Assembly (NCBI GenBank): GCA_029820295.1
Contig: JALGVA010000018.1
Span: 1 to 60,223, forward strand
DNA length: 60,223 nucleotides
Source: Candidatus Zipacnadia bacterium
GTDB taxonomy: Bacteria > Armatimonadota > Zipacnadia > Zipacnadales > UBA5352
Reading direction: 5' to 3'
The notes beneath the pieces were generated by a model. The model saw only the letters and a program-made list of their open reading frames with translations, was not told where the DNA came from and made no database searches. The position numbers and the translations under genes are program-made. This document shows, in pieces, positions 3,688-34,319 of this stretch. Each line of letters starts with the position of its first letter. The stretch's first letter is position 1.

Positions 3688-6978
<3,291 letters not shown>

Positions 6979-8892: not shown

Positions 8893-10422
8893 TCAGAGCC
8901 CTATCGCGCGGTAGAACGGCATCACCACGCCCACCAGGCAGTACAGGTTGAACGCCAGCAGGGCCGCGCCGACCACGAAGGGCAGCGCGTTCCTCGCCCG
9001 CTCCGGCGCCACTCTTCCCACGCCCAGCGCCCACACCATCACCATGCCGAACAGCACCGGGAAAAGGTAGCGCCCCTGGCTGCCGCCGCCCAGGTCGATC
9101 GTGAGGATGTAGGCCAGCACCGCGAACTTGAGCAGCGCGATGGTGAGCAGCACCAGCCAGAAGGCCCGCACCTGCAGCAGTGACCACCCCAGCCGTCCCG
9201 TGCACGCGTCCCCGATGAGCAGCAGCAGGCCCGGCAGGGCCGCCAGGCAGGCGATCAGCAGCAGCCAGTAGAGCGCCGGCGCCACCGCGATGTTGGTCCA
9301 CGCGAAGCCCGCCCACAAGTTGCGGAAGGTCATCGGCGCCGCGATGCGCAGCACCCGCCACAGCGCCTCGGGCTGCGCCAGATAGATCTCCCAGCCAACC
9401 TGCTTTTCGACGTTCGCCGGGAAATGCTGCGGAGAGCCGTACAGCAGTGTGTTGCGCACGTACCACCAGCCGCCGACGGCCAGGGCCACCGCCAGGGCCA
9501 GGCCGGCGGCCCGGGCGACCTTGGCCCAGTCCACGGCGGCGACGCGGCGTGCGAGGTCGGTGAGGATGGTGTCCGCGTGCTCGGGCTCGCGCCGCCGGCC
9601 CGCCGCCCAGACCAGCGCCAGCAGCGCCGGCGGCAGGGCGACGTTGGCCGAGTCCTTAGTCAGCATCCCCACGCCCCACGCCAGCCCCAGCAACGCCACG
9701 CGCCGGGGCGTCGGCCCGTTGCGCAGGATCAGCAGCGCCAGCAGCATGGTCAGGCCGATCGCCACGACCGTCGGCGGGTCATTGCCCACGGCGGCGCTGA
9801 TGTGCGTGTACATGGGATGGGTCGCGAGCGCCGCGGCGACGGTCGCCGCCAGCCACGGCCGGTCGGGGAAGATCAGGTACACGATGCGGTAGCCCAGGAA
9901 CAGGCCCAGGGCGCCCAACAGTACGGTCAGCAGGCGCATGGCCAGCCACGCGCGCCGCTGCGCGGGGGTGAAGCGGGCGGCCTGGCGCAGCGCATCGAGC
10001 GCCAGGGCGTGCTGGCCCGTGCGCACGGTGGGGTAGTGGGGCAGGCGCGCGATGATCTCATCGTTGCTCGCCGCCAGTGCCGCGGGAGGCGCCTGTCCGC
10101 CTTCTGCGGGCGCTTCGCCGCCGATCCCGGCCAGCTTGCCAACCGCCGCGGCCAGCGTGTAATATAGGGGCGCCTGGTAGCTCTCATAGCCCGCGCTATC
10201 GGCGTAGTAGTCGGGCAGCCGGCCGTGCTGAGCGAGGAACGCGGCGTAGCGGAAATGCCCCGGCTCGTCGGGGGCCTGACCGAGCGGGACGAGGGTTGCC
10301 CAGGCCGCTCCGAGGACCAGGTAGGCGCCGATGCAGACAGGCAGGAAGCGCCTCGACCAGAGGCTGGAGCGCCACCCGGCCTCTGGCGTGTTATGTTGAG
10401 TGCAGCGGTCACGTTCGCCCAT
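8893..10422 (-). CDS. multi-pass membrane glycosyltransferase (GT39/PMT-like or DUF2142-like)
   Basis: A 509-residue integral membrane protein with an N-terminal membrane segment (VCIGAYLVLGAAWATLV), then the loop APDEPGHFRYA with the acidic pair typical of lipid-phosphate-sugar-dependent transferases, then about ten further hydrophobic segments. It would use a polyprenyl-phosphate sugar to glycosylate a lipid or protein at the outer face of the inner membrane. The DE-P-H loop also fits DUF2142. The ATG at 10422 starts directly before the polar tail leading into the first membrane helix. It lies divergently from the nucleotide-sugar genes starting at 10528. Confidence 0.7.
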   Translation of the reverse strand: MGERDRCTQHNTPEAGWRSSLWSRRFLPVCIGAYLVLGAAWATLVPLGQAPDEPGHFRYAAFLAQHGRLPDYYADSAGYESYQAPLYYTLAAAVGKLAGIGGEAPAEGGQAPPAALAASNDEIIARLPHYPTVRTGQHALALDALRQAARFTPAQRRAWLAMRLLTVLLGALGLFLGYRIVYLIFPDRPWLAATVAAALATHPMYTHISAAVGNDPPTVVAIGLTMLLALLILRNGPTPRRVALLGLAWGVGMLTKDSANVALPPALLALVWAAGRRREPEHADTILTDLARRVAAVDWAKVARAAGLALAVALAVGGWWYVRNTLLYGSPQHFPANVEKQVGWEIYLAQPEALWRVLRIAAPMTFRNLWAGFAWTNIAVAPALYWLLLIACLAALPGLLLLIGDACTGRLGWSLLQVRAFWLVLLTIALLKFAVLAYILTIDLGGGSQGRYLFPVLFGMVMVWALGVGRVAPERARNALPFVVGAALLAFNLYCLVGVVMPFYRAIGL

Positions 10423-10527
10423 AGTCGTCTCACGGCACTGTAGCACACGGCGGCCGGTGAGGCAACGCCGCACGCGGCCATGCCCGTGTGCCACGCGGCG
10501 TCGCCATCGGCCGCCCCGGAGGCCTAC

Positions 10528-11307
10528 ATGAAGGTGGTTCTGCTGGTGGGGGGCAAGGGGATTCGCCTCGTCGGTGAGGACGCGCCCCTGCCCAAGGCCC
10601 TCTTCCAGATCGGCGGCCAGCCGATCGTCTATCACATCATGCGCAAGTTCGCCGCCGGGGGGATCACCGACTTCGTGCTCACCCTGGGCTACCGCGGCGA
10701 GCAGATCGTCGACTACTTCCTGCACCACGCGCCCTTCCTGCAGAGCGACCTGCGCCTGGAGCTGGGCGGCGACGGCGATGTACCCCACATCACGCGCCTG
10801 GGGCAGCACGGCCCGGCGTGGCAGGTCACCCTCGCGCACACGGGCATCGAGTCACTCACCGGCGAGCGCGTGCGGCGCGTGCAGGGCTACGTGGCCGATG
10901 ACGACGACTTCATGGTCACCTACGGGGACGGACTCGCGGACATCAACCTTGACGATCTCATCGACTTCCACCGCGCTCACGGGCGCGTGGCCACGGTGAC
11001 GGTGGTACGGGCGCGGTCGCAGTACGGACACGTGGCCTTCGACGCCGATGGCGTCGTCGAGCAGATCGAGGAGAAGCCGGCGCTGCCGGGCTGGATCAAC
11101 GGCGGCTTCTTCGTCTTCAGCCGCCGCATCTTCGACTACCTGAGGCCGGGAGACAATCTGGAAGGCGACTGCCTGCCACGCGTGGTCGCCGACGGCCAGC
11201 TCGTCGCGCGCCCCCACGAAGGCTTCTGGGCATGCATGGACACCTACAAGGACGGCGTGATGCTCAATGAGCTGTGGGAGTCGGGCAACGCGCCCTGGAC
11301 GCGGTGA
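10528..11307 (+). CDS. rfbF: sugar-1-phosphate nucleotidyltransferase, glucose-1-phosphate cytidylyltransferase type
   Basis: A 259-residue protein with the NTP-transferase start MKVVLLVGGKGIRL and lysine motif LPKALFQIGGQPI. RfbF-like features include ITDFVLTLGYRGEQI, YGDGLADI, EEKP, WINGGFFVFSRRIFDYL and the C-terminal GFWACMDTYKDG...LWESGNAPW. The reaction would be CTP plus glucose-1-phosphate to CDP-glucose, the first step to CDP-deoxyhexoses of surface polysaccharide. CGGAGG lies ahead of the ATG. A dehydratase/epimerase follows, as in O-antigen clusters. Specificity for CTP over UTP or dTTP is inferred from overall similarity. Confidence 0.82.
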   Translation: MKVVLLVGGKGIRLVGEDAPLPKALFQIGGQPIVYHIMRKFAAGGITDFVLTLGYRGEQIVDYFLHHAPFLQSDLRLELGGDGDVPHITRLGQHGPAWQVTLAHTGIESLTGERVRRVQGYVADDDDFMVTYGDGLADINLDDLIDFHRAHGRVATVTVVRARSQYGHVAFDADGVVEQIEEKPALPGWINGGFFVFSRRIFDYLRPGDNLEGDCLPRVVADGQLVARPHEGFWACMDTYKDGVMLNELWESGNAPWTR

Positions 11308-11324
11308 TCGCGCCCTGCGTCGTC

Positions 11325-11406
11325 GCCGTCAGCCGTTCGCCGTCTGCCGTCTGCCGTCTGCCGTCGTCGTTGCCGTATGCTGGTAACTGGTAGCTGGCAG
11401 CCGACA
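11325..11406 (+). repeat. heptanucleotide tandem repeat upstream of the dehydratase gene
   Basis: Six units GCCGTC(A/T/G) or GCCGTTC run in phase from 11325 to 11366. After a 5-nt interruption the phase resumes as GCCGTAT, GCTGGTA, ACTGGTA, GCTGGCA and GCCGACA to 11406. The array fills the gap between the nucleotidyltransferase stop and the Shine-Dalgarno of the next gene. Confidence 0.8.
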
Positions 11407-11417
11407 GGGAGGTCCCC

Positions 11418-12410
11418 ATGGCGCAGCTCGCGGGTCGTAAGGTGCTGGTCACCGGGGCGCATGGCTTCGTCGCCGGGCATCTCATCGAGCGTCTGGCGGA
11501 GGCCGGCGCCGAGGTGATCGGCGTCGATCTGTGGATGATCCGACAGTCCTACCTGAGCATGTCGCCGGCCATCCGCCGCACCGATCTGATCGAGGGCGAC
11601 ATCTCCAACCTGGAGGAGATGCAGGCGCTGTTCGATGAGCATCGCCCGCAGATCGTGGTGCACCTGGCCGCGCAGGCCGATGTTACCCGCGCGCTGAGCA
11701 ACCCGCTGGGGACCTTCGAGGCGAACGTGCGTGGCACGTACATCGTGCTCGAGTGCGCGCGCCGTATCTGGCAGGACGACGGCGACCCGCACGCGCTGGT
11801 CATCGCCGGCTCCGATAAGGCATACGGGCACCACGACTATCTGCCCTATCGTGAGGACGATGCGCTGCTCGGGCTGTTCCCCTACGACGCCTCCAAGGCC
11901 TGTGCCGACATCATCGCGCGCGGCTACCATGCCGCCTGGGGCCTGCCCACGGGCGTGGTGCGCTGCGCCCAGATCTACGGTCCGGGCGACCTGAACTTCA
12001 ACCGCATCGTCCCCGGCACTCTCCGTGCGCTGCTGCGCGGCGAGCGGCCGACGATCCGCTCCGACGGGACGCCGGTGCGCGACTACATCTACGTCGCGGA
12101 CGCGGTGGATGGCTACATGCGTGTGATGGGTGCACTGCTCGCCGGCCGGCACATGGGAGAGGCCTTCAACATCGGCAGTGGCGAGGGAGTGAGCGTGCTG
12201 TCGATCTTCCGCGAGATGGCGGAGATCGCCGGGCGCCCCGACCTGCAGCCGCAGGTGCTGGGCGAGGCCACACGCGAGTTGCAGGACCAGGTCGTCTCAG
12301 CCGAGCGCGCCCGTCGCCTGCTGGGCTGGGAGGTGCAGGTACCGCGCGCCGAGGGCCTGCGCCGGACCTTCACCTGGTATCGCGACAACCTGGCGCACAT
12401 CGAGGTGTAG
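11418..12410 (+). CDS. NAD-dependent epimerase/dehydratase, probably CDP-glucose 4,6-dehydratase-like
   Basis: Extended short-chain dehydrogenase of 330 residues. The Rossmann motif is VTGAHGFVAGHL. The NAD-ribose loop HLAAQADVTRAL, the motif GSDKAYG and the catalytic YDASK at mid-protein follow. The C-terminal half carries the substrate domain (VRCAQIYGPGDLNFNRIVP). The SDK-YG and LGLFPYDASKACAD segments resemble RfbG, and the preceding RfbF-like gene supports conversion of CDP-glucose to CDP-4-keto-6-deoxyglucose. The substrate loop IRSDGTPVRDY is more GDP-mannose or UDP-sugar dehydratase-like, so the exact nucleotide is uncertain. A strong GGGAGG precedes the ATG. Confidence 0.75.
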   Translation: MAQLAGRKVLVTGAHGFVAGHLIERLAEAGAEVIGVDLWMIRQSYLSMSPAIRRTDLIEGDISNLEEMQALFDEHRPQIVVHLAAQADVTRALSNPLGTFEANVRGTYIVLECARRIWQDDGDPHALVIAGSDKAYGHHDYLPYREDDALLGLFPYDASKACADIIARGYHAAWGLPTGVVRCAQIYGPGDLNFNRIVPGTLRALLRGERPTIRSDGTPVRDYIYVADAVDGYMRVMGALLAGRHMGEAFNIGSGEGVSVLSIFREMAEIAGRPDLQPQVLGEATRELQDQVVSAERARRLLGWEVQVPRAEGLRRTFTWYRDNLAHIEV

Positions 12411-13856: not shown

Positions 13857-14453
13857 ATGAGGGCGCGGCTGGGCCTCGCCATTCTCATCATCGCGGGCGT
13901 CGCACTGGTGGTGACGGTGATCTTCGTCGCCACGCGCGGGCGGCCTACCGCGGTCGAGGACTGGGAGCTGAACAAGGAGGTCCCGCTGATCCGCCAGCCC
14001 GGCGAGCAGGAGCCCACCACCGAGGGCCCCATCCAGGTCTCGGGCACCGAGCTGACCGTCGCCGATGAAGCGGGTGCGGTCATCTGGCGCGCCAGCTTCG
14101 GCGGCGAGATCGAGCTGGACCAGCAGGGGCGCACCGCACGGGCCGAGCAGGTGCACTGGGAGTTCGAGGGCGAGGGCTTCGAGGGCCTGACCATCGATGC
14201 GCCTATCATGACCGCCGACTATGACATGAAGCTGCTGCAGTTTTCCGAGGGCGTGACGATCGAACTCGAGCAGGGCGACTTCAGCTTCTCCGCCGCCAAG
14301 GTTGAATACCAGTTCAACACCCAAAAGCTGATCGCCACCGGAGATGTGCAGTTCCGCGGCGGCTCGTACGCCGCGCACGTCCGGGAGGCGGTCATCGACA
14401 ATCGAGCGATGACCTGCCGTCTGAAGCACGGGGAACTCGTGCGCCGTGAGTAG
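13857..14453 (+). CDS. lptC: LptC-like LPS transport bridge protein
   Basis: A 198-residue protein with one N-terminal membrane segment (LGLAILIIAGVALVVTVIFVA) and a periplasmic beta-jellyroll-like region rich in alternating hydrophobic strands. It ends with a segment about an accumulated 'VEYQFNTQKLIATGDVQFRGG' motif typical of the OstA/LptC family. In the Lpt machine LptC passes lipopolysaccharide from the LptBFG extractor to LptA. It lies 4 bp after the GT2 gene and before lptA and lptB, so it is read as one operon. Confidence 0.75.
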   Translation: MRARLGLAILIIAGVALVVTVIFVATRGRPTAVEDWELNKEVPLIRQPGEQEPTTEGPIQVSGTELTVADEAGAVIWRASFGGEIELDQQGRTARAEQVHWEFEGEGFEGLTIDAPIMTADYDMKLLQFSEGVTIELEQGDFSFSAAKVEYQFNTQKLIATGDVQFRGGSYAAHVREAVIDNRAMTCRLKHGELVRRE

Positions 14454-14496
14454 CCCGCGGCTGGAGACAAGCGATGGATGTGAGGATAGCGCAACC

Positions 14497-15045
14497 ATGA
14501 AGCGGACGGCAGTCGTGTACATGGTCGTGGGTCTGATCGCCCTCGTCGTCGCGGGCGTCACCGCTCAGCAGGTGCGTCAGACGCGGACGGGCAGGCTCGT
14601 CTTCAACGAGCTGCAGTGGGACTTCGCCCACAATACCATCGTAGTCACAGGCAACCCGGCCTCGATGGTCGTTGAGGGTCTGCACAAGGCGCAACTGCGC
14701 TCCCCGCGCATGGAGATCGATGCCGATCAGCGCCTGGAGGAGATTCACGGCGCCACCGCCGCGGGCCCGGTGAGCCTGGACCTGCTCACCGCCCCCGATG
14801 TCGATGGCCGCCGCCGGCGCATCACCGCGTCATGCACGCAACGCGCCACCTATTCCAAGGCTGAGGACACCGTGGTCATGAGCGGCAACGTCGTGGCCGA
14901 CATCGTCACGCTTCCCGAGGGCGAGGCCGAGGCGGCTCACCTCGAGAGCGAGACCATCATCGTCAACCTGCGCACCAGCACCCTGACCGCGCGCCCGGGC
15001 ACCTTCGAGGTCACTACCGAAGTGGACGTTCCCGGGGAGCAGTAG
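14497..15045 (+). CDS. lptA: LptA/OstA-like periplasmic LPS-transport protein
   Basis: A 182-residue exported protein with a membrane or signal segment (VVYMVVGLIALVVAGVTA) and then OstA-type repeats: FAHNTIVVTGNPASMVVEG, KAEDTVVMSGNVVADIV. LptA polymers bridge the periplasm between LptC and LptD. The ATG at 14497 has GAGGA 10 nt upstream. An in-frame GTG at 14446 overlapping lptC is less likely. The hydrophobic segment has no clear cleavage site, so the protein could remain anchored. Confidence 0.72.
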   Translation: MKRTAVVYMVVGLIALVVAGVTAQQVRQTRTGRLVFNELQWDFAHNTIVVTGNPASMVVEGLHKAQLRSPRMEIDADQRLEEIHGATAAGPVSLDLLTAPDVDGRRRRITASCTQRATYSKAEDTVVMSGNVVADIVTLPEGEAEAAHLESETIIVNLRTSTLTARPGTFEVTTEVDVPGEQ

Positions 15046-15048
15046 CAC

Positions 15049-15768
15049 ATGTCGCTTATGGCCGAGGGGCTGGTCAAGAGCTACGGCGGCCGACGCGTCG
15101 TGGATGGCGTGGACCTGCACGTGCAGCGCGGCGAGATCGTCGGCCTGCTGGGCCCCAACGGGGCGGGCAAGACCACCAGCTTCTACATGATCCTGGGCCT
15201 GGTGCGCTCCGACGCCGGCACGGTGCTGCTCGACGACGTGAATCTGGCGCCCTTCCCCATGCACGAGCGCTGCCGTCGCGGGCTGGGCTACCTGGCTCAG
15301 GAGCCCTCGGTCTTCCGCCGCCTGACCGTGCGCGAGAACCTGCTGCTGATCCTGGAGATGCAGGGACTGTCGCGCCAGGCCCAGCGTGCGCGCGCCGACG
15401 AGCTGCTCGAGCGTCTGGGGCTCACCGCACGCGCCGACGACCGCGGCGCGGTGCTCTCCGGCGGCGAGCGCCGGCGCGTCGAGATCGGCCGCACGCTGTG
15501 CACCCAGCCATCGTTCATCCTGCTCGATGAGCCCTTCACCGGCGTGGACCCCATCGCCATCGATGACATCCGCAGCCTGGTCGCGGATCTGGTCTCGGAC
15601 CAGATCGGCATCCTCATCACCGACCACAACGTGCGCGAGACGCTGGGCATCTGCGACCGCGCGTACATCATCTCCGAGGGCAAGATCCGCACGCAGGGCC
15701 CGGCCGCCGAGCTGCCCAACGACCCGATAGCCCGCCGGTACTACCTGGGCGACCGCTTCCAGATGTGA
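15049..15768 (+). CDS. lptB: LPS export ABC transporter ATP-binding protein
   Basis: ABC ATPase of 239 residues powering the LptBFG extractor at the inner membrane. The Walker A is GPNGAGKTT, the Q-loop YLAQEP, the signature LSGGERRRVEI, and the Walker B FILLDEPF followed by GVDPIA. The switch His is in ITDHNVRET. The LptB-specific DHNVRETL and C-terminal ARRYYLGDRF are present. It starts four bases after the lptA stop. Confidence 0.96.
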   Translation: MSLMAEGLVKSYGGRRVVDGVDLHVQRGEIVGLLGPNGAGKTTSFYMILGLVRSDAGTVLLDDVNLAPFPMHERCRRGLGYLAQEPSVFRRLTVRENLLLILEMQGLSRQAQRARADELLERLGLTARADDRGAVLSGGERRRVEIGRTLCTQPSFILLDEPFTGVDPIAIDDIRSLVADLVSDQIGILITDHNVRETLGICDRAYIISEGKIRTQGPAAELPNDPIARRYYLGDRFQM

Positions 15769-15777
15769 GGACGGCCG

Positions 15778-15993
15778 GGCATGGGGGATGGGGGAGGGGG
15801 CATGGGGAACGGCGAACGGCCGGGCATCGGGGATGGGGGATGGGGCATGGGAACGGCGAACGGCCGGGAACCGGGAACGGGCAACCGGCAACCGGGGACG
15901 GCGAACGGCCGGGATGCGTACGCGTTCACCGACGGCTCCCGCCGTTGCCGCTAGCCGGTAGCTGGTAGCTGGTAGCTGATAGCTGGAAGCTCC
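15778..15993 (+). repeat. long heptanucleotide tandem array upstream of lptF/G
   Basis: Twenty successive 7-nt units run without loss of phase from 15778 to 15917, drifting from GG(C/G)ATGG through (C/G)GAACGG to AACCGGG and AACGGCC. After a 34-nt break, six more units (TAGCCGG, TAGCTGG, TAGCTGG, TAGCTGA, TAGCTGG, AAGCTCC) fill 15952-15993, ending two bases before the lptF/G ATG. The TAGCTGG family also occurs before carB and the dehydratase gene. The array separates the permease from the rest of the lpt operon. Confidence 0.85.
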
Positions 15994-15995
15994 CA

Positions 15996-17078
15996 ATGAG
16001 ACGCCTCGACCGCTACGTACTGACCGAGATGCTTCCCCCGTTCCTGTTCGGGATCGGGGCGTTTCTCGCCGTACTGGTCGGCGTCCAACTTCTCTATGAG
16101 ATGCTGCGCCTGATCTACCAGCAGGGCTTCCCGGCGTGGGCGGCGGTGCGCATCTTCTTCCTCGAGCTGCCGGCCGTGATCACCCTCACCTTCCCCATGG
16201 CTACGATTTTCGGCAGCCTGATGGGCATGGCGCGGCTGAGCGGCGATGGCGAACTGGTGGCCATGCGCGCCGGCGGCATCTCGATCATGCGCATCGCCAG
16301 GCCGATCATCGTCGTCGGCTTCGTCGTGTCCATCGCGGGCCTCGCCATCAACGAGAGCGTTGTCCCCGGCGCCAAAGACCGGGCCTTCGAGATCGCGCGT
16401 GAGGTGCACAGCACGGTCGCCACTGACAAGGACCTGGCGCTGGAGATCCGCGACGACGAGGATCACGTCGAGCGCTGGGTGCACGCGCGCGCCTTCGACC
16501 CCGACAGCCTCACGCTCAGCGGCGCCACCGTGGTCGACTTCACCCTCGGCCCGCGGGCGGAGCTGTACGAGGCGGAGGTCGCGCGCTGGCAGGGCCAGTA
16601 CCTCATCCTGGAGAATGTTCGTTACACCAAGTGGATCGACGGCGAGCAGTTCACGGCCGACGTGCCGCGGATGATGGTGCCTATCGGCCGCACGCCCGAG
16701 GAGGTAGAGCGCGTCCGCAAGCTGCCCGACGACATGTCCCTGGCGGAGCTGCAGGAGCAGGCCGGGCTGGCGGACGAGCAGGGCCGACCGGCCTGGGCCA
16801 ACCGCCTGCGCCAGCACTATGCCATCCGCCTTGCGCTGCCGTGGGCCTGCGTGGGCTTCGCGGTGCTGGGCGTGGCGCTGGGCGTCCAGCGCCAGCGCTC
16901 CTCGCGCGGCATCGGCATGGGCCTGTCGCTGCTGGTGATCTTCGTCTACTACGTGGTGCTGCATACCCTGACGCTCGTTGGCGAGAGGGGGGTGGCGGAC
17001 CCGGCGCTGATGGCCTGGACCCCGAACGTGTTGCTGTACCTGGTGGGAGCGGGCCTGCTGCTGCGCGCCTCGCAGTAG
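15996..17078 (+). CDS. LptF/LptG family LPS export permease
   Basis: A 360-residue permease with the family layout: three N-terminal membrane helices (FLFGIGAFLAVLVGVQLL, IFFLELPAVITLTFPMATIFGSLMGM, IIVVGFVVSIAGLAI), a periplasmic beta domain of about 150 residues, then three C-terminal helices. The conserved LTFPMATIFGSLMGMARLSGDGELVAMRAGG is intact. It pairs with LptB to extract LPS from the inner membrane. Only one permease gene is here instead of the usual lptF plus lptG, so it may form a homodimer or have a partner elsewhere. No Shine-Dalgarno is obvious because heptad repeats run to the start. Confidence 0.9.
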   Translation: MRRLDRYVLTEMLPPFLFGIGAFLAVLVGVQLLYEMLRLIYQQGFPAWAAVRIFFLELPAVITLTFPMATIFGSLMGMARLSGDGELVAMRAGGISIMRIARPIIVVGFVVSIAGLAINESVVPGAKDRAFEIAREVHSTVATDKDLALEIRDDEDHVERWVHARAFDPDSLTLSGATVVDFTLGPRAELYEAEVARWQGQYLILENVRYTKWIDGEQFTADVPRMMVPIGRTPEEVERVRKLPDDMSLAELQEQAGLADEQGRPAWANRLRQHYAIRLALPWACVGFAVLGVALGVQRQRSSRGIGMGLSLLVIFVYYVVLHTLTLVGERGVADPALMAWTPNVLLYLVGAGLLLRASQ

Positions 17079-17117
17079 CCGCCCGCCGCCCGGCGCCGTG
17101 CCCTGAGCCGTAACACG

Positions 17118-18596
17118 ATGGCAACCTACACGATCGCGCTATTCGTCGGACTGGCGGTCCTCGGTGCGCTCATCGCGTACCTGGGCGACCTCGTGGGCGC
17201 GGCGCTGGGCAAGCGTCGCATCACCCTCTTCGGTATGCGTCCGCGGGGCTCGGCGCGGCTCATCGCCGCCATCGTGGGCGCCATCCTCCCGCTGCTGGGC
17301 CTCGGCGTCGCCACGCTGGGCTCCCAGTACGCCCGCATCGCGGTCTTCCAGCTCCGCAGCATCATCCAGCAGCGCGAGACGCTGAGCGGTGAAGTCACCA
17401 AACTTCAGGGCCAGGTGGCCGAGTACGAGCACAAGGTTGCCGACGCCGAGGAGCGGGCCGACGCCGCTGAGGACACCGCCGCCAAACTCGAGAGCACCAC
17501 CGCCGAACAGCGCGAACAGATCGCCGAACTCAATGCGCGTCGCGAGGAGCTCGCCGGCCGTGTCGAGAGTCTCACCGCGCGCCGCGAGCAGCTCCAGAAC
17601 GACCTGACTGCCGCCCGGGATGATCTGCGGTCGGCGGAGGCGGAACTGGCGAGCGCCGAGGCCGATCTGGACACGACGCAGGAGGAACTTGACGCCAAGC
17701 GGGCGGAGGTCGACAGGCAAGCGGCCCGCGTCGAGCAACTGCGCCTGCAGATCGAGAATATCAGTCCGCAGATCGAGGACATTCAGGATCAACTTGCCCA
17801 GGCCGAGATGGAACTCAGAAGCCGTATCAGCCGCCTGACGGACGCCGAGCAGAAACTGGCCGACGTTCAGGCGCAGCTCGAGCAGGTCCTGCGCCGCCAC
17901 GAGCTGGTGGCGAGCCGGCAGCCTGCCTTCGAGCCGGGCGACGAGCTGATCCGCGTGGTCATCGCGGCCGACGAGACCCAGGATCAGATGGAGGCCGACC
18001 TCTACGAGCTGCTGCACCTCGCCAGCGTGGTCGCCAAGCGAGGTGGGGCGGTGGAAGGTGGCAACGGGCGCGCGGTCATCGTGGTGGCGCCCATCCCGCG
18101 CTGGGCGGCCGGCAGCGAGGTGCCCGAAGGGATGATCGTGCGCAACGTGGCGTCGGAGCTGCGCACCGGCGGTGCGGACGAGTGGGTCGTGATCGTGCGC
18201 GCCTTTCGGCGCTACTTCCCGGGCGACGGCGGTCAGCTCGCCGTCGAGTTCTGGGCGACCCCCAACCGCCTGGTCTTCCACGCCGGTGAGGTGCTTGACG
18301 AGTTCACCGTCCCCGCCAGCGACACCGCGCTGCAGGCTTTCGAGAAGCTGTGGCTGCACATCGCCAACCGCCCCACCAGCGTGGTGCGCGCCCGCGCGGT
18401 TACCGAGGGCATGCTGCCCCATCCCGACACCGGCAACTACGGGACCATCGACTTCGCGCACCTGTTCTCGGCGGTGGACGAGATCCGCGCGGGCGACGGC
18501 CAGATGCGCGTACGCGTGACCGCGGCGGAGGACGCCTACACGCGGGGTCCGCTGCTGCTCGACATCGAGGTCACCCCCGCCGACGCGTCGCCCTGA
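17118..18596 (+). CDS. DUF3084 membrane-anchored coiled-coil protein
   Basis: A 492-residue protein. Two N-terminal hydrophobic segments (IALFVGLAVLGALIAYLGD and LIAAIVGAILPLLGLGVATL) flank KRRITLFGMRPRGSA, diagnostic of DUF3084. A long coiled coil from about residue 85 to 265 (KLQGQVAEYEHKVADAEER and similar heptads) follows, then a globular C-terminal domain. The family is best known in Cyanobacteria and has no assigned function. A structural or envelope-scaffold role is only a guess. A YqgF-like nuclease and a polynucleotide kinase follow downstream. Confidence 0.85.
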   Translation: MATYTIALFVGLAVLGALIAYLGDLVGAALGKRRITLFGMRPRGSARLIAAIVGAILPLLGLGVATLGSQYARIAVFQLRSIIQQRETLSGEVTKLQGQVAEYEHKVADAEERADAAEDTAAKLESTTAEQREQIAELNARREELAGRVESLTARREQLQNDLTAARDDLRSAEAELASAEADLDTTQEELDAKRAEVDRQAARVEQLRLQIENISPQIEDIQDQLAQAEMELRSRISRLTDAEQKLADVQAQLEQVLRRHELVASRQPAFEPGDELIRVVIAADETQDQMEADLYELLHLASVVAKRGGAVEGGNGRAVIVVAPIPRWAAGSEVPEGMIVRNVASELRTGGADEWVVIVRAFRRYFPGDGGQLAVEFWATPNRLVFHAGEVLDEFTVPASDTALQAFEKLWLHIANRPTSVVRARAVTEGMLPHPDTGNYGTIDFAHLFSAVDEIRAGDGQMRVRVTAAEDAYTRGPLLLDIEVTPADASP

Positions 18597-18700: not shown

Positions 18701-19111
18701 GTGCCCGAGGCAGCCGTCGTCGCCATTGACCCGGGACGCGACAAGTGCGGCCTCGCCGCCGTGGCCGCCGACGGCGCCGTGCTCGCCCGCGCCATCGTGC
18801 CCACGCCTGAGATCGGCCCCGCCGTCGTCGCCCTCGCCAGCGAGCATCGCGCCGCCACCGTCATCCTGGGCGAACGCACCGGCGCCCGAGAAGTGCGCGC
18901 CGCCGTCGAGGCCACTGCGCCCGACCTGCCCGTCCATGAGGTCGATGAGCATATGACCACGCTCCTGGCGCGGCGGCGCTACTGGCGCGAGAACCCGCCA
19001 CGCGGCCTGTGGCGGCTGCTCCCCGAGGGCCTGCGCCTCCCGCCCGAGCCCATCGACGACTGGGCCGCGGTCATCCTCGCCGAGCGCTACCTGGGGCTGG
19101 CGGAGCGATGA
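18701..19111 (+). CDS. YqgF/RuvC-like RNase H-fold nuclease
   Basis: A 136-residue protein with the RNase H-fold opening AVVAIDPGRDKCGLA (metal-binding Asp) and a second strand TVILGERTG. The VHEVDEHMTTLLARRRYW segment is like the YqgF catalytic Glu region, and IDDWAAVILAERYL comes near the end. YqgF proteins process pre-16S rRNA or resolve branched nucleic acid; which applies is unknown. The GTG at 18701 gives the family's usual N-terminus. The stop codon overlaps the next start as ATGA, so it is translationally coupled to the kinase gene. Confidence 0.8.
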   Translation: MPEAAVVAIDPGRDKCGLAAVAADGAVLARAIVPTPEIGPAVVALASEHRAATVILGERTGAREVRAAVEATAPDLPVHEVDEHMTTLLARRRYWRENPPRGLWRLLPEGLRLPPEPIDDWAAVILAERYLGLAER

Positions 19112-19992
19112 CGGATCCGGCGATGCCCGCCGCCTGGCTCGACCTGCTCGACGCGCTCTCGGGCGAGACCGGCACGATCATGGTCATCGGCGGCGTGGAC
19201 ACGGGCAAGACCGTCCTCACCCGCTGGCTCGCCGAGCAGCTTGCAGCGCGCGGGCCGGCGGCCATCGCCGACTCCGACCTCGGCCAGTCGGTCCTGGGCC
19301 CGCCCGGGACCGTGGGCTGGCGGATGGTCGGCGCGGACGCCTCGGAGTTCATCTTCGTGGGCGAGATCTCACCCGCCCGCCGGCCGCTGGGCACCGCAAC
19401 CGCCACCTGGCGGGCGTGCGAGCGCGCCCGCGAGGCCGGCGCGGCGTGGCTGGTGCTCGACACCTCCGGCTACGTGGACGGCCTGGGGGCGGTGGCCCTC
19501 AAGCGCGCCAAGATGGACCTCGTGCGGCCCACCGATGTCGTACTGATCGAGGACAGCCCGGATCGGCTGACCGCCATTACTCGCGCCATCCGACCCGATG
19601 AAGCGCGCGTGCATCGTCTGCAGCCGGCCCCGGCGGTGGAGGCGCGCAGCCCCGCGCGCCGGCGGCAGTGGCGCGAGGAGCGCTTTCGCGAGTGCCTGGC
19701 CGGCGCGACCGTCCGGCGCATCCCGCTGGCGGGACGCGCGGTCTACGGGGGCAGGCCGTGGCGCTGGGGCACGGCGTGGCCGAGGCTCGAGGGGCGGCTG
19801 CAGGGGATGCTGGTGGGGCTGAGCGACGCGGAGGGCATCGGGCTTGCGCTGGGCCTGCTCCGCGGGGTGGGGGACGCGGGCAAGACGCTGCTGGTGCTCG
19901 CGCCGCCGGTCGATGACGGGCGCATCGGCGCGGTGAGCTTCGGCAACATCCGCCTGCGCGAGGACGGGACGCAGATCATCGAAGAGATGTGA
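19108..19992 (+). CDS. Clp1/Grc3-like polynucleotide 5'-hydroxyl kinase
   Basis: A 294-residue P-loop protein with a Clp1/Grc3 arrangement. Walker A is GGVDTGKT (28-35), and the substrate motif DSDLGQS (55-61) is followed by PPGTVGW. The clasp-like LDTSGYVDGLGAVALKRAK leads into PTDVVLIE. A C-terminal beta domain contains GLLRGVGDAGKTLLVLAPP and GFG-like strands. In eukaryotes and archaea this family phosphorylates RNA or DNA 5'-OH ends. Bacterial members are uncommon and uncharacterised. Coupling to the nuclease gene by ATGA suggests joint action on nucleic acid ends (inference). Confidence 0.8.
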   Translation: MTDPAMPAAWLDLLDALSGETGTIMVIGGVDTGKTVLTRWLAEQLAARGPAAIADSDLGQSVLGPPGTVGWRMVGADASEFIFVGEISPARRPLGTATATWRACERAREAGAAWLVLDTSGYVDGLGAVALKRAKMDLVRPTDVVLIEDSPDRLTAITRAIRPDEARVHRLQPAPAVEARSPARRRQWREERFRECLAGATVRRIPLAGRAVYGGRPWRWGTAWPRLEGRLQGMLVGLSDAEGIGLALGLLRGVGDAGKTLLVLAPPVDDGRIGAVSFGNIRLREDGTQIIEEM

Positions 19993-20002
19993 CCCGGGGG
20001 CG

Positions 20003-20953
20003 ATGAAGATGCTGAGGAGCAAGCTGACGCGCGCACTGCCGATCGTCGCGCTGCTGGCGCTCGGGACCTGCGCCCTCGCGCAGGAGCAGGCGCCACCGGC
20101 GTGGGAGGACGTGCGCGCGCAGGTCGAGGAGGGCCTGCTGCTGCGCAAGGTCGACGAGGTCATCGACCTGTGCACGCGGGTGCTGGTTGGCGCCCCGGAG
20201 TGCGCCGAGGCGCTGCTGGCCCGCGCGCAGGCCGCCGAGCAGCGCTGGCGCTTCGACATGGCGCTGCGCGATTACACCGCGTCCATCGAGGCGGACCCGA
20301 CGCTGATCGAGGCGTGGCTCGGGCGCGCGCTGGTCTATGATCGCTACGACGACGAGGATGCGCGAGAGGCAGACCTGCAGCGGGCGCTGGAGCTGTGCAC
20401 CGACCGCATCGCCGACGACCCGGAGGATGCGGAGGCGTATCTGTTCCGCGGCCTGGCCATAGTGCGGCGCGGCGACAGCCCGCTGCCGGCCGTGGACGAC
20501 TGGGAGGAGGCGCTGCGCCTCGCGCCTGAGGACTACCGCATGCATCAGTGGATGGCGCGCGTGGCCGAGTTCCGTGATGGGCTGTCGGAAGCCCTGGCCT
20601 GCCTTGACCGGGCGCTCGAGCTGGAGCCGCGGGCGATGCGTGTGCGCGAGCTGCGCGCGATGACCCTCTGGGCGCTGGGCTCGACCGACGAGGCGCTTCA
20701 GGCGTGGGACGAGATGCTCGAGTTGAATCCCGATGACCCCATGATCCACTGGATGCGGGGCCTTCAGTTGTCCAGGGCCGACAGCGAGGCGGCGCTGGCG
20801 GAGTACGTCCGCGCGGTGGAGATCGATCCGGGCTTCTGGCCGCCGCTTGAGTTGCGGGGTCATGCCCGCAGCCGCGCCGGGGACCACGAGGGCGCCATCG
20901 CTGACCTCACGCGCGCAATCGAGATCCAGGAGGAGATGGGGCTCAGCCCATGA
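20003..20953 (+). CDS. exported TPR-repeat protein, C-terminus cut by an in-frame stop
   Basis: A 316-residue protein with a signal peptide (LPIVALLALGTCALAQ) and about six tetratricopeptide repeats (for example ALACLDRALELEPRAMRVREL and GAIADLTRAIEIQEEMG). It probably mediates protein contacts in the periplasm; no specific partner is visible. Translation ends at TGA 20951-20953, but the same frame continues with another TPR up to 21271. The intact ancestral protein would have had about 422 residues. The gene begins 10 bp after the kinase gene. Confidence 0.8.
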   Translation: MKMLRSKLTRALPIVALLALGTCALAQEQAPPAWEDVRAQVEEGLLLRKVDEVIDLCTRVLVGAPECAEALLARAQAAEQRWRFDMALRDYTASIEADPTLIEAWLGRALVYDRYDDEDAREADLQRALELCTDRIADDPEDAEAYLFRGLAIVRRGDSPLPAVDDWEEALRLAPEDYRMHQWMARVAEFRDGLSEALACLDRALELEPRAMRVRELRAMTLWALGSTDEALQAWDEMLELNPDDPMIHWMRGLQLSRADSEAALAEYVRAVEIDPGFWPPLELRGHARSRAGDHEGAIADLTRAIEIQEEMGLSP

Positions 20954-21271
20954 GGATCGTGGGGTACCTTGGCACGCATCCACGAGCAGGCTGGCGACTG
21001 GGAGGCAGCGCTGGAGGCGAGCGAGCAGGGCATCGCCGCCAACTCCGACCAGCCGAACCCGTGGATGAGCCACGTTCGGCTCCTCATGGGCCACGGCGAC
21101 TACGCGGAGGCGTGGCAGGCGCTGCACGCGGCGGAGGCGCGGATGGTGAACGTGCCGGACCACATCGCGCAGGTCATGCAGGATGGCATCGACAATCTAC
21201 GCGCCGAACTCGGGCGGCACATGCCCGAGCCGGAGACCGGGGACGCGCAGACCACCAACGAGGGGAACTGA
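20954..21271 (+). pseudogene. in-frame remainder of the TPR gene downstream of the TGA
   Basis: Directly after the stop the frame reads GSWGTLARIHEQAGDWEAAL, a good TPR, then a second helix pair and a polar tail to TAA-independent stop TGA at 21269-21271. Protein-like composition without further stops argues that it was recently part of the upstream gene. A TTG at 20969 could in principle start a separate 100-residue protein, but no convincing ribosome site is seen. Confidence 0.6.
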
Positions 21272-21275
21272 TGGC

Positions 21276-22334
21276 ATGGCCACGAAGACGATCGGCGAGT
21301 TCGAGGTCGGGGACCGCATCACCGGCACCTACGCCGCGCGCGACAAGTCGCTGGCGAGCTTCAAGAGCAAGCCCGGCCAGTACCTGTCGCTGACGCTGGG
21401 CGACGCCAGCGGGGAGATCCCCGCGCGCATGTGGGACAACGCCGAGGAGGCCGCCGCCCTCTTCGGTGCGGGCGACGCGGTGACCGTGCGCGGCGTGGTC
21501 GAGGAGTACCGCGGCCAGAAGCAGCTCGTGATCGAGCGGCTGAAGAAGGCCGAGCCCGAGGAGATCGCGCGCGCCGAGCTGATGCGCAGCACCACGCACG
21601 ACCTCGACGACCTGCGCGCGCGCGTACTCGAGATCGCCGACAGCGTGCGCGAGCCGCACCTGAGCGCGCTGCTCGAGCAGTTCTTCGGCGACGAGGAGTT
21701 CGTGGACCGCTTCGCGCGCGCGCCCGGCGCCAAGTCGCTGCACCATTCGTACATCGGCGGGCTGATCGAGCACACCGTGGGCGTGGTCGAGGTGCTGGAG
21801 ACGGTCGCGCGCGTGCACCCCGAGCTGGATCGGGATCTGCTCATGGCCGGGGCGCTGCTGCACGACATCGGCAAGGTGACCGAGCTTGAGTGCAGCGCTA
21901 CAATCGAGTACACTGACCAGGGCCGGCTGGTCGGCCACACCGTGCTGACCGACCGCATGGTCAACCAGGCGATCGCCCGCATCGAGGGGTTTCCGCAGGA
22001 GTTGGCGAATCGCCTTACACACCTGCTGCTCTCGCACCACGGGCAGCGGGAGTACGGCGCGCCGGTGCTGCCCATGACCGCCGAGGCGTGCGCGCTGCAC
22101 TACGCCGACAACCTGGACGCACACGTGCAGTACTTCGGCCAGGTGATCCGCGACGGCGCGGCGGCAGGCAACCAGTGGTCGGACTTCCAGCGCCTGTTCG
22201 ACCGCTACATCTTCGTCGGCGCGCGCGGCAACGCACCGGGCGGGCGCCTGGAGCCACCGCCTCCGGCCGAGGGCGCATCGGCCGAAGGTCACGAGCCCGG
22301 CCACGAGTCGCCGGGGAACCTGTTCGACCAGTAG
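21276..22334 (+). CDS. YhaM-type 3'-5' exoribonuclease (OB fold plus HD domain)
   Basis: A 352-residue protein. Residues 1-100 form an OB-fold nucleic-acid-binding domain (GQYLSLTLGDASGEIPARMWDN). Residues 150-310 form an HD phosphohydrolase domain with SLHHSYIGGLIEHT, LLHDIGKVTE, LLLSHHGQREYG and AEACALHYADNLDAH, the same order as YhaM. The family trims RNA or single-stranded DNA from the 3' end. The C-terminal 45 residues are Pro/Gly-rich and not conserved. The ATG at 21276 follows an AGGGG. It is the third nucleic-acid-related gene in this stretch after the nuclease and kinase. Confidence 0.9.
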   Translation: MATKTIGEFEVGDRITGTYAARDKSLASFKSKPGQYLSLTLGDASGEIPARMWDNAEEAAALFGAGDAVTVRGVVEEYRGQKQLVIERLKKAEPEEIARAELMRSTTHDLDDLRARVLEIADSVREPHLSALLEQFFGDEEFVDRFARAPGAKSLHHSYIGGLIEHTVGVVEVLETVARVHPELDRDLLMAGALLHDIGKVTELECSATIEYTDQGRLVGHTVLTDRMVNQAIARIEGFPQELANRLTHLLLSHHGQREYGAPVLPMTAEACALHYADNLDAHVQYFGQVIRDGAAAGNQWSDFQRLFDRYIFVGARGNAPGGRLEPPPPAEGASAEGHEPGHESPGNLFDQ

Positions 22335-22408
22335 GCCTGTTGGGGCGGTTGTGAGCAATGCTTCCCGCAGGCAGTCTGAACAATCGCAGGGGCGTAGCGT
22401 CTACGCGA

Positions 22409-23032
22409 ATGGCCAAGGCCGCAACACTCTCACAGGCGGAGATCGAGCGCTTCGTCGAGCGCGCCAAGCGCGGCGACAGGCGGGCCTTCGGTCGCCTGGT
22501 GGATGAGTACAAGGACAAGATATACAGCTACGTCTCGCGGATGCTCGGCGACCCGTACGAGGCCGAGGACGTGACGCAGGAGGCGTTCGTGCGAGCCTAC
22601 CGCTCGCTGCCGAGGTTCCGCGGCGCGGCCAGCTTCCACACCTGGCTGTATCGCATCGCCGGCAACCTGGCGATCGACGTGGTGCGCCGCCGCAAGCGCA
22701 ATGACGTGTCGGCGTTCTCGCTGGACGAGCCGCTCGAGTCCGACGACGGCGAATACGAACGGGAGATCGCCGACGATACCGGTGGCCCCGAGGATGCGAC
22801 CGGCACGCGCGAGACGCAGCTGGCCGTGCGCCGGGCGATCATGGACCTGCCCGAGAAGCTGCGGGACGTGATGATCCTCTACGAGCTGCAGGGCGAGACC
22901 TACGAGGACATCGCCGAGATCCTGGATGTGCCGCTGGGCACGGTGAAGAGCCGGCTGTTCAACGCGCGCAACCAGCTCAAGGAGCGTCTGCAGTCGCTGG
23001 TCGAGGCGGGCGAGATAGAAGTCGAGCAGTAG
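22409..23032 (+). CDS. ECF-family RNA polymerase sigma factor (RpoE-like)
   Basis: A 207-residue sigma factor. Region 2 (FGRLVDEYKDKIYSYVSRML through EDVTQEAFVRAYRSLPRF and TWLYRIAGNLAIDVVRR) binds core polymerase and the -10 element. A charged linker of about 45 residues follows. Region 4 (YEDIAEILDVPLGTVKSRL) binds the -35 element. An anti-sigma gene and an RseB-like gene follow, so envelope stress is the likely signal. An in-frame ATG at 22358 would add 17 residues; 22409 fits the family's N-terminus, but neither start has a perfect ribosome site. Confidence 0.92.
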   Translation: MAKAATLSQAEIERFVERAKRGDRRAFGRLVDEYKDKIYSYVSRMLGDPYEAEDVTQEAFVRAYRSLPRFRGAASFHTWLYRIAGNLAIDVVRRRKRNDVSAFSLDEPLESDDGEYEREIADDTGGPEDATGTRETQLAVRRAIMDLPEKLRDVMILYELQGETYEDIAEILDVPLGTVKSRLFNARNQLKERLQSLVEAGEIEVEQ

Positions 23033-23102
23033 CGCCGCGCAGCCATGCGCCGCACAGGACGTACTCCCCGGCCCGGATGCGGGGAGCTGGAGGTCGAGAC
23101 CG

Positions 23103-23615
23103 ATGACGTGCGTGGAAGTCCGCGAGAACCTGGTCATTTGCTGGGGCGACGCCGACGAGCTGAGCGCGGAGGTGCTGGCGCACCTGGCCGAGTGCGAGGC
23201 GTGCCGGCTGGAGGCGATGCTGCTGCGTGAGACGCGCATCATGCTGCGCTCGCTGCCCGACGAGCAGGCCCCCGTGGGCCTGACCGAGGGCGTCCTGGCG
23301 CGCCTCGCCGACGAGGAGGCCCAGGTGGGGCTGCCGGGCCGCGTGGCTGCGTGGTTTGTCCCGCAGGATCAGCCCGCATGGGCGCGCGCCGCGGCGGTGG
23401 GCGTGGCGCTGGCCCTCGCCGTGGCGGGGGGGAGCGTCCTCTACCACGGCCAGCAGCCGGCGGGCAACGAGCCGGAGACGGTGGTCGCGACCACGCAGGG
23501 GCAGGTCCCCGGTCAGGCGGAGTATGACGAGCTGCTGCTGCGCCATCGTGCGCTGGAGGCCAGCCAGGCGCTGGCCGATGATCCGGGCGTGACCCTGGTG
23601 ACCTACTACCGCTGA
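23103..23615 (+). CDS. zinc-finger anti-sigma factor (zf-HC2), membrane spanning
   Basis: A 170-residue protein. The N-terminal ZAS domain carries Cys3, His27, Cys31 and Cys34 (HLAECEACR), a zinc set that clamps ECF sigma factors. One membrane helix (AAAVGVALALAVAGGSVLY) is near residue 105, with a short periplasmic tail. It sits 70 bp after the sigma gene and should hold that factor at the inner membrane until the tail is cleaved or sensed. GGAGG lies upstream of the ATG. Confidence 0.85.
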   Translation: MTCVEVRENLVICWGDADELSAEVLAHLAECEACRLEAMLLRETRIMLRSLPDEQAPVGLTEGVLARLADEEAQVGLPGRVAAWFVPQDQPAWARAAAVGVALALAVAGGSVLYHGQQPAGNEPETVVATTQGQVPGQAEYDELLLRHRALEASQALADDPGVTLVTYYR

Positions 23616-23691
23616 GCCGAACCCGACGCGGGCGGCAGGCGTCCGCCGGCGGTGCTGACTGACGCACTACGGTCTCGAAGCATCCAGGAGT

Positions 23692-24696
23692 ATGGCAACG
23701 AGGAAGCGAAGCGCACTCATGAGCAGGCTGGGCAGGCTGGCGGCCATCGCCGGCGTCGCAACGGTCGTGACCGCCTTCGCCCTGGCGCAGATGGACGATC
23801 CCCTGGAGATTCTGCGCCGGTCGATCCTGGCGCGAGGCACGGTTGACTTCGCCGGCATGCGCACCGTGGTGATCTTCGAGGGCGGGGAAAAGGTGCGCGG
23901 CGTCGAGCAGCAGGTGCAGTGCCAGGCTCCCCATCGCACGCGCATCACGGTGACCGCTCCCGACTCCGAGGCGGGAACGATGTGCCTGATCGTGGATCGG
24001 GTGCAATGGGAGTACGACCCGCACACCCAGCGCGTCGTGCGCACCCAGCTCGCACCTGTCGAGCGCGTCGTCCAGCAGCGACTTCGTGACCTCGAGCGCG
24101 TCGCCGAGCATATGCGCCTGCAGTACTGCGGCACGGAGGCCATCGCGGGCCGCACCGCGCATGTGATCAAGGTATACACCCAGCAGGGCGTTCCGGTGAA
24201 GAAGTCGTGGGTGGACGGCCAGTCCTGGGTGACGCTCAAGACCCAGCGCTTTGATCCGCAGGGGCGCGTCAAGTCCTCGGCCTACTTCACGCGCATCAAC
24301 TACGCCCCGAGCTTCCCACCCGGCACCTTCGACTTCCAGCCGCCCGCCGGCGCCACGGTCATCGCCGCCGCGCGCGCTCCCGAGCGCATGCCGCTGTCCC
24401 GGGCGGAGCAGCGCGCCGGCTTCCAGGCAGTGCTGCCCGAGTACCTGCCGCCGGGCTACAGCTTCCAGAACGATCGCGTGGCGGTCATCCAGCTCGGCGG
24501 CCAGGCCGCCCTGTGGCTGCCCTTCAGCAATGGCGCGGAGACCTTCAGCCTCTTCCAGCGCCCCGGCACGGGCCCCAGGGACACGTTGCGGCGCGGCCGC
24601 TCGATCACCTGGCAGGCGGGCGGCTACCGCTTCACGCTGCTGGGGCCGCTGAGCGCGGAAGACATGCAACAGGTCAGGGCGTCGATCCGTCCGTAG
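23692..24696 (+). CDS. RseB/MucB- and LolA-like periplasmic regulator
   Basis: A 334-residue exported protein with signal segment LAAIAGVATVVTAFALA. A LolA-fold domain runs from about residue 35 to 230 (VDFAGMRTVVIFEGG, CLIVDRVQWEYDPHTQRVV, KTQRFDPQGRVKSSAYF). A smaller C-terminal domain begins LPEYLPPGYSF. RseB-type proteins sense envelope lipids or misfolded porins and protect the anti-sigma from proteolysis; the gene order sigma, anti-sigma, this gene supports that role. The start is uncertain: AGGAG is only 2 nt before the ATG at 23692, and an ATG at 23719 is an alternative. Confidence 0.75.
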   Translation: MATRKRSALMSRLGRLAAIAGVATVVTAFALAQMDDPLEILRRSILARGTVDFAGMRTVVIFEGGEKVRGVEQQVQCQAPHRTRITVTAPDSEAGTMCLIVDRVQWEYDPHTQRVVRTQLAPVERVVQQRLRDLERVAEHMRLQYCGTEAIAGRTAHVIKVYTQQGVPVKKSWVDGQSWVTLKTQRFDPQGRVKSSAYFTRINYAPSFPPGTFDFQPPAGATVIAAARAPERMPLSRAEQRAGFQAVLPEYLPPGYSFQNDRVAVIQLGGQAALWLPFSNGAETFSLFQRPGTGPRDTLRRGRSITWQAGGYRFTLLGPLSAEDMQQVRASIRP

Positions 24697-33700: not shown

Positions 33701-34319
33701 GTATGCCGACGGAACGACGCTGAGGGTCGGCGGGATCGTGCGCAATTTCCGCGAGCATCGCGATCGCAACGGCCGACCCATGTGCTTCTTCACGCTCGCA
33801 GCGATGGACGCCGAGGTGGACGTCACCTGCTTCGCGGACCTCTTCGAGGAGCGCGGCGAGCTGATCGCCGATGACAACATCCTGGTGATCGATGGGAAGC
33901 TCGAGCTGCGTACCCGCACCGGCGCCGACGGCGAGCAGATCGAGGAGGCCAGGCTGCTGTGCCGCAAGGTCAGGCTGCTCGAGCACGCGCGCACCATCTC
34001 CGAGCAGCGCATGGAGGAGGCGCGCCAGGGGCGTGAGAAACGCGCGCGCCAGCGGCAGGACCGGCACCTGCGTGAGAACCCGCCGCGCGTCGAGGTGTGC
34101 CTGGGGGCGTGCGGCGACGTCGAGGGCGTGATGGCGCAGCTCAAGCGGGCGATCTACGATCACCCGGGAGCGCTGGACGTCTGCGTGCGCGTGCCCGGCC
34201 CGGAGCGCGAGCGGGTGGTGAAGCTGGGGCCATCCTACCGCGTGGACGGCGTCAACGGCTTCAAGCAGGCCATCGAGCCGCTGCCCTGGGTGCGGCGGGT
34301 GGAGGTGTGCCGCAACTGA
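30792..34319 (+). CDS. dnaE: DNA polymerase III alpha subunit
   Basis: Replicative polymerase of 1175 residues, full length. The PHP domain opens at residue 7 (FVHLHVHSEYSLLDGA, ALTDHGVMYG). The palm has the metal-binding Asp401 and Asp403 in PDIDLDFPDD, the same numbers as in E. coli, and the third-Asp region near KIDFLGLKTL. The fingers (RPGPLQFADTL, YQEQVMRTATDLAGF) are intact. A helix-hairpin-helix and an OB fold (LRVGGIVRNFREHRDRNG) follow, then a C-terminal tail domain. It synthesises both leading and lagging strands with the beta clamp. The his gene cluster follows, 29 bp after its stop. Confidence 0.98.
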   Translation: MSDQTPPFVHLHVHSEYSLLDGAIALHKLPPRVAELGMPAVALTDHGVMYGAIDFYQACHDAGVKPIIGCEVYVAPRTRHDRDPQRDRHAYHLVLLAENLQGYRNLVELTSRASLEGHYYNPRVDLELLSRCHEGLIALSACPMGEVGKLIAAGDMAGARQHVSQYRDMFGPDNYFLEIQDHNLEIEAQVMPRIVEIARDLDVPLVATNDAHYLRREDHRYHDVLLCIGTNAKVSDENRMRMETEQFHLRSPQEMAELFRDYPEALSNTVAIAERCNVELELGEQRLPRYEVPDGHDLDSFLRARCVEGVRERYGAEPPEVMARLDYELDVIRRTNYSGYFLIVADLCQEARRRGMLIGPGRGSATGSMVAYTLGITQLDPLEHGLIFERMLNPERKSPPDIDLDFPDDRRQEIIDYCRDRWGEDHVAQIITFNTLGPRAAIRDVGRALEVELDKVDRLAKLVPGGATIPEAREMAPELRAVTEEDEQLAEVLEIAEHLEGLARHCSVHAAAVVVSDEPLMTKVPLRRDEGANMPVTQYAMKPVEAVGLVKIDFLGLKTLQVVASTIELVRRRHGVEIDPLNMPLDDPATYELLARGDTDAVFQVESDGMRRVLRQLKPDRFEHIIQMIALYRPGPLQFADTLCDRRHGGEIKYPHPDLAPILEETYGVILYQEQVMRTATDLAGFTMPQAELIMRAMAKKQQAQMEQMKPLFIDGCVERGIERSCAEDIFRRMETFSDYGFNKSHSTGYALVVYWTAYLKANYPAEYMACHLTTVMDHADDVARYVASCQQSGLEVLPPAVNSSRAEFSVNDDGAITYGLAAIKNLGHNTAEAIEREREENGPFRSLADFCGRFSSREVQLSALQLLIQAGAFDEFGDRAALLAGSEAAFAAGQQRQADAAVGQVSLFGGDGPAEIEEVALPDVPPMPDQEKLRLEKELLGVWVSDNPLVKAQEKLVRCTNASLSELSEYADGTTLRVGGIVRNFREHRDRNGRPMCFFTLAAMDAEVDVTCFADLFEERGELIADDNILVIDGKLELRTRTGADGEQIEEARLLCRKVRLLEHARTISEQRMEEARQGREKRARQRQDRHLRENPPRVEVCLGACGDVEGVMAQLKRAIYDHPGALDVCVRVPGPERERVVKLGPSYRVDGVNGFKQAIEPLPWVRRVEVCRN

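Follow-up and report, generated by a model that had tools for sequence, protein, structure and literature searches.

The window, a stretch of 60,223 nucleotides from a Zipacnadia (Armatimonadota) genome, contains a gene for a Clp1-like protein, clp1, that has an ATG start and a TGA stop and shares an ATGA overlap with the ORF upstream. An operon resembling those for LPS export (13857-18596; LptC-like, LptB and LptF/G genes followed by that for a DUF3084 protein) runs into this upstream ORF and clp1. The wider surroundings are those of an ordinary chromosome, with the genes for carbamoyl-phosphate synthase large chain (3688-6978), DNA polymerase III alpha (30792-34319) and a tRNA (54368-54439); a tRNA is also all that Rfam finds in the window. 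The features around clp1 are as follows.

17118-18596, + strand: upstream DUF3084 coiled-coil membrane protein (DUF3084, 2.5e-17)
18701-19111, + strand: RuvX/YqgF-like protein, ATGA overlap with clp1, lineage-specific neighbour (RuvX 22.3 bits, sub-threshold)
19108-19992, + strand: clp1, predicted Clp1-family polynucleotide 5'-hydroxyl kinase, 294 aa (CLP1_P 85.2 bits; predicted fold that of Clp1/Grc3/NOL9)
19189-19212, + strand: Walker A GGVDTGKT, residues 28-35, aligning with GPTDVGKS of human Clp1
19270-19290, + strand: DSDLGQS, residues 55-61, the DxDxGQS motif with the presumed catalytic Asp57, aligning with human ELDVGQG
19456-19488, + strand: clasp LDTSGYVDGLG, residues 117-127, aligning with human INTCGWVKGSG, with Tyr instead of the clasp Trp
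19645-19695, + strand: lid helix, residues 180-196, with Arg185 and Arg189, both conserved (helix 182-196 in the model)
19705-19989, + strand: C-terminal domain, residues 200-294, probably a shortened archaeal-type Clp1 C-terminal domain (profile matches)
20003-20953, + strand: TPR protein between clp1 and yhaM (TPR_11, 4.5e-22)
20969-21271, + strand: small ORF, candidate second TPR or accessory gene, with a TTG start and its stop just 5' of yhaM (ORF list and sequence)
21276-22334, + strand: yhaM-like gene, predicted OB-fold and HD 3'-5' exoribonuclease, recurrent partner of clp1 (HD 7e-14, OB 8.4e-9)
22358-23032, + strand: ECF sigma factor, conserved 3' of clp1-yhaM in the order
23103-23615, + strand: anti-sigma-like gene, conserved context (3' of the sigma factor gene in 11 loci)
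23692-24696, + strand: LolA/MucB-RseB-like protein, conserved context (LolA_like, 8e-10)

The sequence-only reading had assigned the product of clp1 to the Clp1/Grc3 kinases from the order of four motifs, GGVDTGKT, DSDLGQS, PPGTVGW (residues 65-71) and LDTSGYVDGLG. All four are present as described and in the order characteristic of the family, of which the window protein is a member because profile match, conserved motifs and predicted fold all indicate it. The Pfam profile CLP1_P aligns with residues 28-195 over nearly its whole length (positions 1-184 of 188; E = 6.7e-24, 85.2 bits against a curated cut-off of 26.6 bits), and this is the sole match to the profile in the 5.63 Mb assembly. 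In alignment with human and worm Clp1, the Walker A, DxDxGQ and clasp motifs and the lid arginines occur in the same order and are conserved across phyla: D57, G59, G64, G121, R185 and R189 are invariant in 42 divergent homologues, G28, D31, G33, K34, D55, Q60 and D118 are each found in 41, and T119 in 40. The lid segment RSPARRRQWREERF (residues 180-193) is also consistent with the family. A phmmer search of the PDB with the window protein matched human Clp1 and worm CLP-1, and a profile of 21 relatives recovered human Clp1 at 1e-25, followed by worm Clp1, NOL9 and GRC3, with RecA and midasin matched over short P-loop stretches only.

Structure prediction points the same way. The AlphaFold2 model, for which the window protein was aligned with 52 relatives, has a pLDDT of 95.5 and a pTM of 0.92, and its best 21 Foldseek matches in the PDB are all Clp1, Grc3 or NOL9, the RNA-bound transition-state form of worm Clp1 among them (best match E 9.6e-17, TM 0.72 by query length). 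Given the chemistry of the family and the residues that are conserved, the protein is very probably an ATP-dependent polynucleotide 5'-hydroxyl kinase that produces 5'-phosphorylated RNA. Such a kinase in a bacterium is already known, and the view that the family is confined to eukaryotes and archaea or undescribed in bacteria is not supported: the catalogue of Saito et al (2019) lists Clp1 from 144 bacterial species, and the Clp1 of Thermus scotoductus phosphorylates the 5' ends of single-stranded RNA (PMC6777427).

The eukaryotic N-terminal domain is absent: CLP1_P begins at residue 28, and the kinase domain has only some 20 residues in front of it. At the other end, a profile of the Armatimonadota C-terminal region matches the C-termini of Bathyarchaeal and Methanomicrobial Clp1 at 1.7e-17 to 1.5e-6 in a search of 7,704 frames. 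When sequences from the order of the window are left out of the profile, it still finds the C-terminus of the window protein at 1.2e-10 and those of archaeal Clp1s at 1.8e-16 to 5e-5. Most Armatimonadota Clp1s are approximately 355-360 aa long, and alignment shows that in the window's order the C-terminal region has been shortened by an internal deletion. The window protein and its phylum thus appear to carry an archaeal-type C-terminal domain, putatively the one defined as Clp1_aC, judged by likeness to archaeal C-termini. The published statement that bacterial Clp1 has no archaeal C-terminal domain (PMC6777427) would accordingly fail as a general rule in Armatimonadota. As the missing domain had served as an argument against transfer of Clp1 from archaea to bacteria (PMC6777427), its occurrence in bacterial Clp1s reopens the question of their origin.

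The Clp1 family is common in Armatimonadota, the phylum to which the Zipacnadia of the window belong. At least 134 of 291 sampled genomes have a CLP1_P match above the cut-off, a lower bound because scoring covered only some of the candidates. Relatives are also found in Poribacteria, Bacillota, Chloroflexota, Thermodesulfobacteriota, Rokubacteria, Nitrospirota, Actinomycetota and archaea. Hence two published generalisations are corrected, the rarity of bacterial Clp1 by this count and the absence of the archaeal C-terminal domain by the likeness described above. A single-sequence search of the genome contig collection with the window protein found no relative. No relative of clp1 was detected by tblastn in phage and plasmid collections, nor was one confirmed in a scan of viral contigs, leaving a phage or plasmid origin without support in these searches. 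Membership of a known defence system was likewise rejected, as PADLOC gave no match for clp1 and only a weak Cas3-HD similarity for the HD domain of YhaM.

Within the window's own family, clp1 can be lost. Four relatives in which the region is readable (L163, L165, L167 and L168) have no clp1 and retain both the yqgF-like gene and yhaM, and a profile search of the yqgF-yhaM regions in clp1-less relatives revealed no diverged copy. In L168, the place of clp1 between these two genes is filled by an unrelated, apparently secreted protein that looks beta-helix-like by eye (G265; 9657-11732). Further members of the family also have no clp1 match, but in their case the contig breaks off early or the region has undergone rearrangement. 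Clp1 is best regarded as an accessory enzyme that a lineage can lose, probably with a role in RNA metabolism.

Across the order, the neighbour most consistently associated with clp1 is yhaM. Its product in the window has an OB fold followed by an HD domain with an HDIGK motif, and scores 191.7 bits with the NCBIfam YhaM profile, of which it covers positions 3-288 out of 314; as this is below the equivalog cut-off of 460 bits, the protein is YhaM-like on sequence grounds and not a certified equivalog. YhaM of S. aureus is a Mn-dependent 3'-5' exoribonuclease (PMC11347170). In the window, yhaM lies 1.3 kb downstream of clp1 with one or two small genes between them. In 18 of the 20 testable loci of the order, the window included, clp1 is followed by yhaM on the same strand, mostly with a gap of approximately 0-250 bp; in L048 and L075 a different gene lies next to clp1, and L040 ends at the contig edge. 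The adjacency is also present in L141, from the same class and outside the order. In a separate clade of Bacillota, the reverse arrangement, yhaM then clp1, is found in all seven members, and this clade (tree support 99/88) sits inside a Bacillota group that otherwise has no YhaM. Because the two clades are separately supported and have the genes in opposite order, the adjacency most likely arose twice, in Armatimonadota and in Bacillota, although the tree test is compatible with a single origin too. On an estimate made here, assuming one yhaM per ~2 Mb, chance alone would place the two genes within 2 kb of each other in far fewer than 1% of genomes. No earlier report of a link between Clp1 and YhaM was found in the papers that could be searched, and the pairing across two phyla seems to be a new element.

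Other neighbours recur in other lineages. Outside the window's order, about 12-13 loci, including other Armatimonadota, have a histidine phosphatase gene (PF00300) immediately 3' of clp1 and in the same orientation (among them L101, L062, L141, L145, L147, L151, L113 and L118); in L025 a single open frame runs from clp1 into the phosphatase, and in four loci CobO is encoded downstream of clp1. These arrangements are suggestive of a kinase-phosphatase pair or of a corrinoid link. The Poribacterial clp1 clusters (L080-L116), which are conserved, have an LptB-like ABC ATPase gene at +1, an SppA-like protease gene (identified by eye) at -1 and exopolysaccharide-type genes upstream. The block of ECF sigma factor, anti-sigma-like and LolA/RseB-like genes (22358-24696 in the window) is conserved with yhaM across the order, and envelope-stress control near clp1-yhaM is possible on this account. 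No HEPN match was found among the scanned neighbours of clp1 in the window.

The explanation that best accommodates the whole, and which is regarded as somewhat probable, is that a Clp1-family kinase acts with YhaM in RNA metabolism. The likeliest pathway, plausible and still rather less than probable, is the clearance of RNA ends. Asp57 would activate the 5'-hydroxyl of single-stranded RNA, while the P-loop and lid arginines would position the gamma-phosphate of ATP, the product being 5'-phosphorylated RNA. The substrates may be the fragments with 5'-hydroxyl and 2',3'-cyclic phosphate ends that are left by toxins, damage or metal-independent RNases. By turning their 5'-hydroxyl into a 5'-phosphate, Clp1 would make them substrates for 5'-phosphate-dependent nucleases such as RNase J and RNase E/G, both of which are encoded in the genome, and YhaM would trim the same fragments from the 3' side. 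The precedent is Grc3, whose phosphorylated RNA is degraded by Rat1-Rai1 (PMC10942766); the bacterial pathway would resemble the way in which Grc3 prepares RNA for Rat1, but with other nucleases.

Gene adjacency by itself is no proof of a shared pathway, and several observations count against the partnership: small genes separate clp1 from yhaM in the window, several members of the window's family keep yhaM without clp1, and many other lineages do not have the link at all, with the LptB-like ATPase and another conserved gene adjacent in Poribacteria and the histidine phosphatase in other Armatimonadota. On balance, YhaM is nonetheless probably the functional partner of Clp1.

RNA repair offers a different use for the same genes. 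Clp1 would heal the 5'-hydroxyl end and YhaM or the histidine phosphatase the 3' end, after which the two would be sealed by a ligase that has escaped recognition. The HD domain of HD-Pnk enzymes is a metallophosphohydrolase that heals 3' ends, and a 5'-kinase beside an HD protein in two phyla, or (in 13 other loci) beside a histidine phosphatase, would fit such a scheme, as would the 2H phosphoesterase-type protein encoded in the genome. Bacterial repair by kinase, phosphatase and ligase is also known, in Pnkp1-Rnl-Hen1 (PMC4411300). However, no RNA ligase of the PF09414 type was found in the genome by a search in which the positive controls matched (in that for PF09511, the controls were silent). 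RtcB is encoded, but it joins 5'-hydroxyl ends, which a 5'-kinase would destroy; the two enzymes would therefore oppose each other, and decay or processing is favoured over RtcB-type sealing. Repair by an unrecognised ligase is possible, and the two-gene healing scheme as a whole is considered unlikely.

The gene overlapping clp1 had been put forward in the sequence-only reading as a coupled nuclease gene and as a clue to function. The overlap is there, and the product, a divergent RuvX-like paralogue, is only probably a nuclease: it scores 22.3 bits against the RuvX profile, below the cut-off of 29.2, three of six relatives also match weakly, and the candidate acidic active-site residues D11, E84 and D121 are conserved in six homologues. 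Together with the adjacency, which recurs in one relative of the same family (G267), this could suggest rRNA processing in which the YqgF-like protein cuts and Clp1 phosphorylates. Such a role is improbable, as elsewhere in the order clp1 does not have this gene as a neighbour, a canonical RuvX (136 bits) is encoded elsewhere in the genome, and clp1 itself is losable. Because the yqgF-like gene is kept in the four relatives without clp1, it is independent of it, and was rejected as the key partner; the clue is limited to the window's family, and the order-wide partner is YhaM.

It is more doubtful still that the Clp1 fold acts here on a nucleotide or a metabolite of the corrinoid pathway instead of a polynucleotide. 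In four loci of the Armatimonadota type, clp1 is followed by genes for the histidine phosphatase and CobO/BtuR, which would favour a cofactor kinase, but CobO is missing from most loci, the window included, all the polynucleotide kinase motifs are conserved, and the sole bacterial member to have been tested phosphorylates RNA (PMC6777427). A P-loop GTPase or MinD-type protein mistaken for Clp1, as generic P-loop similarity and the early annotation of such bacterial proteins as GTPases (PMC6777427) might suggest, is ruled out by fold and by sequence, as the first structure after the Clp1, Grc3 and NOL9 matches is SRP54 with a TM of 0.33 against 0.72, and the 21-relative profile scores SRP-, FtsY- and MinD-type proteins no better than 4e-4, some 20 orders of magnitude behind Clp1. 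A best structural match to a GTPase or MinD-like ATPase, which the sequence-only reading had named as refuting it, was thus looked for and did not appear.

Since 2019 bacterial Clp1 has been an enzyme with a known activity but no pathway, and the pairing with an exoribonuclease, reversed in order between two phyla, provides a concrete partner that can be tested. It is conceivable, if not yet the likelier case, that Clp1 as 5'-kinase and YhaM as 3' OB-HD exonuclease or phosphohydrolase form an undescribed bacterial two-component machine for RNA ends, assembled independently in Armatimonadota and Bacillota. Such a machine would be the bacterial counterpart, in logic, of Grc3-Las1-Rat1 or HD-Pnk, with an archaeal-type Clp1.

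Among known systems, the closest in kind is the Clp1 of T. scotoductus (Ts-Clp1, UniProt E8PQM6), a Clp1_P kinase that is likewise bacterial and likewise lacks the N-terminal domain of the eukaryotic enzymes (PMC6777427). Its RNA kinase activity has been demonstrated, whereas that of the window protein is predicted; at ~27 kDa it reportedly ends without a C-terminal domain (PMC6777427), in contrast to the window protein and its phylum, to which an archaeal-type one is attributed here, and its lid is less well conserved. Archaeal Clp1s (Ph-Clp1 of Pyrococcus and the Bathyarchaeota loci L124, L140 and L149) have a PNK domain and a homologous C-terminal domain, as does the window protein, but retain the internal C-terminal segment lost in the window's order, and those of Bathyarchaeota have approximately 80 additional N-terminal residues. 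The eukaryotic enzymes, worm CLP-1 and human CLP1, have the fold and active-site motifs in common with the window protein, which differs in having no N-terminal domain, a Tyr in place of the clasp Trp, and no TSEN or Pcf11 context. Grc3/NOL9-Las1 (PMC10942766) is a case of the same kinase family working with nucleases, and its priming of RNA by conversion of 5'-hydroxyl to 5'-phosphate is the model adopted for the window protein, for which gene order suggests an exoribonuclease, YhaM, as partner in the place of a HEPN endonuclease. That neighbour has in turn the same combination of OB fold and HD domain as YhaM of S. aureus (PMC11347170).
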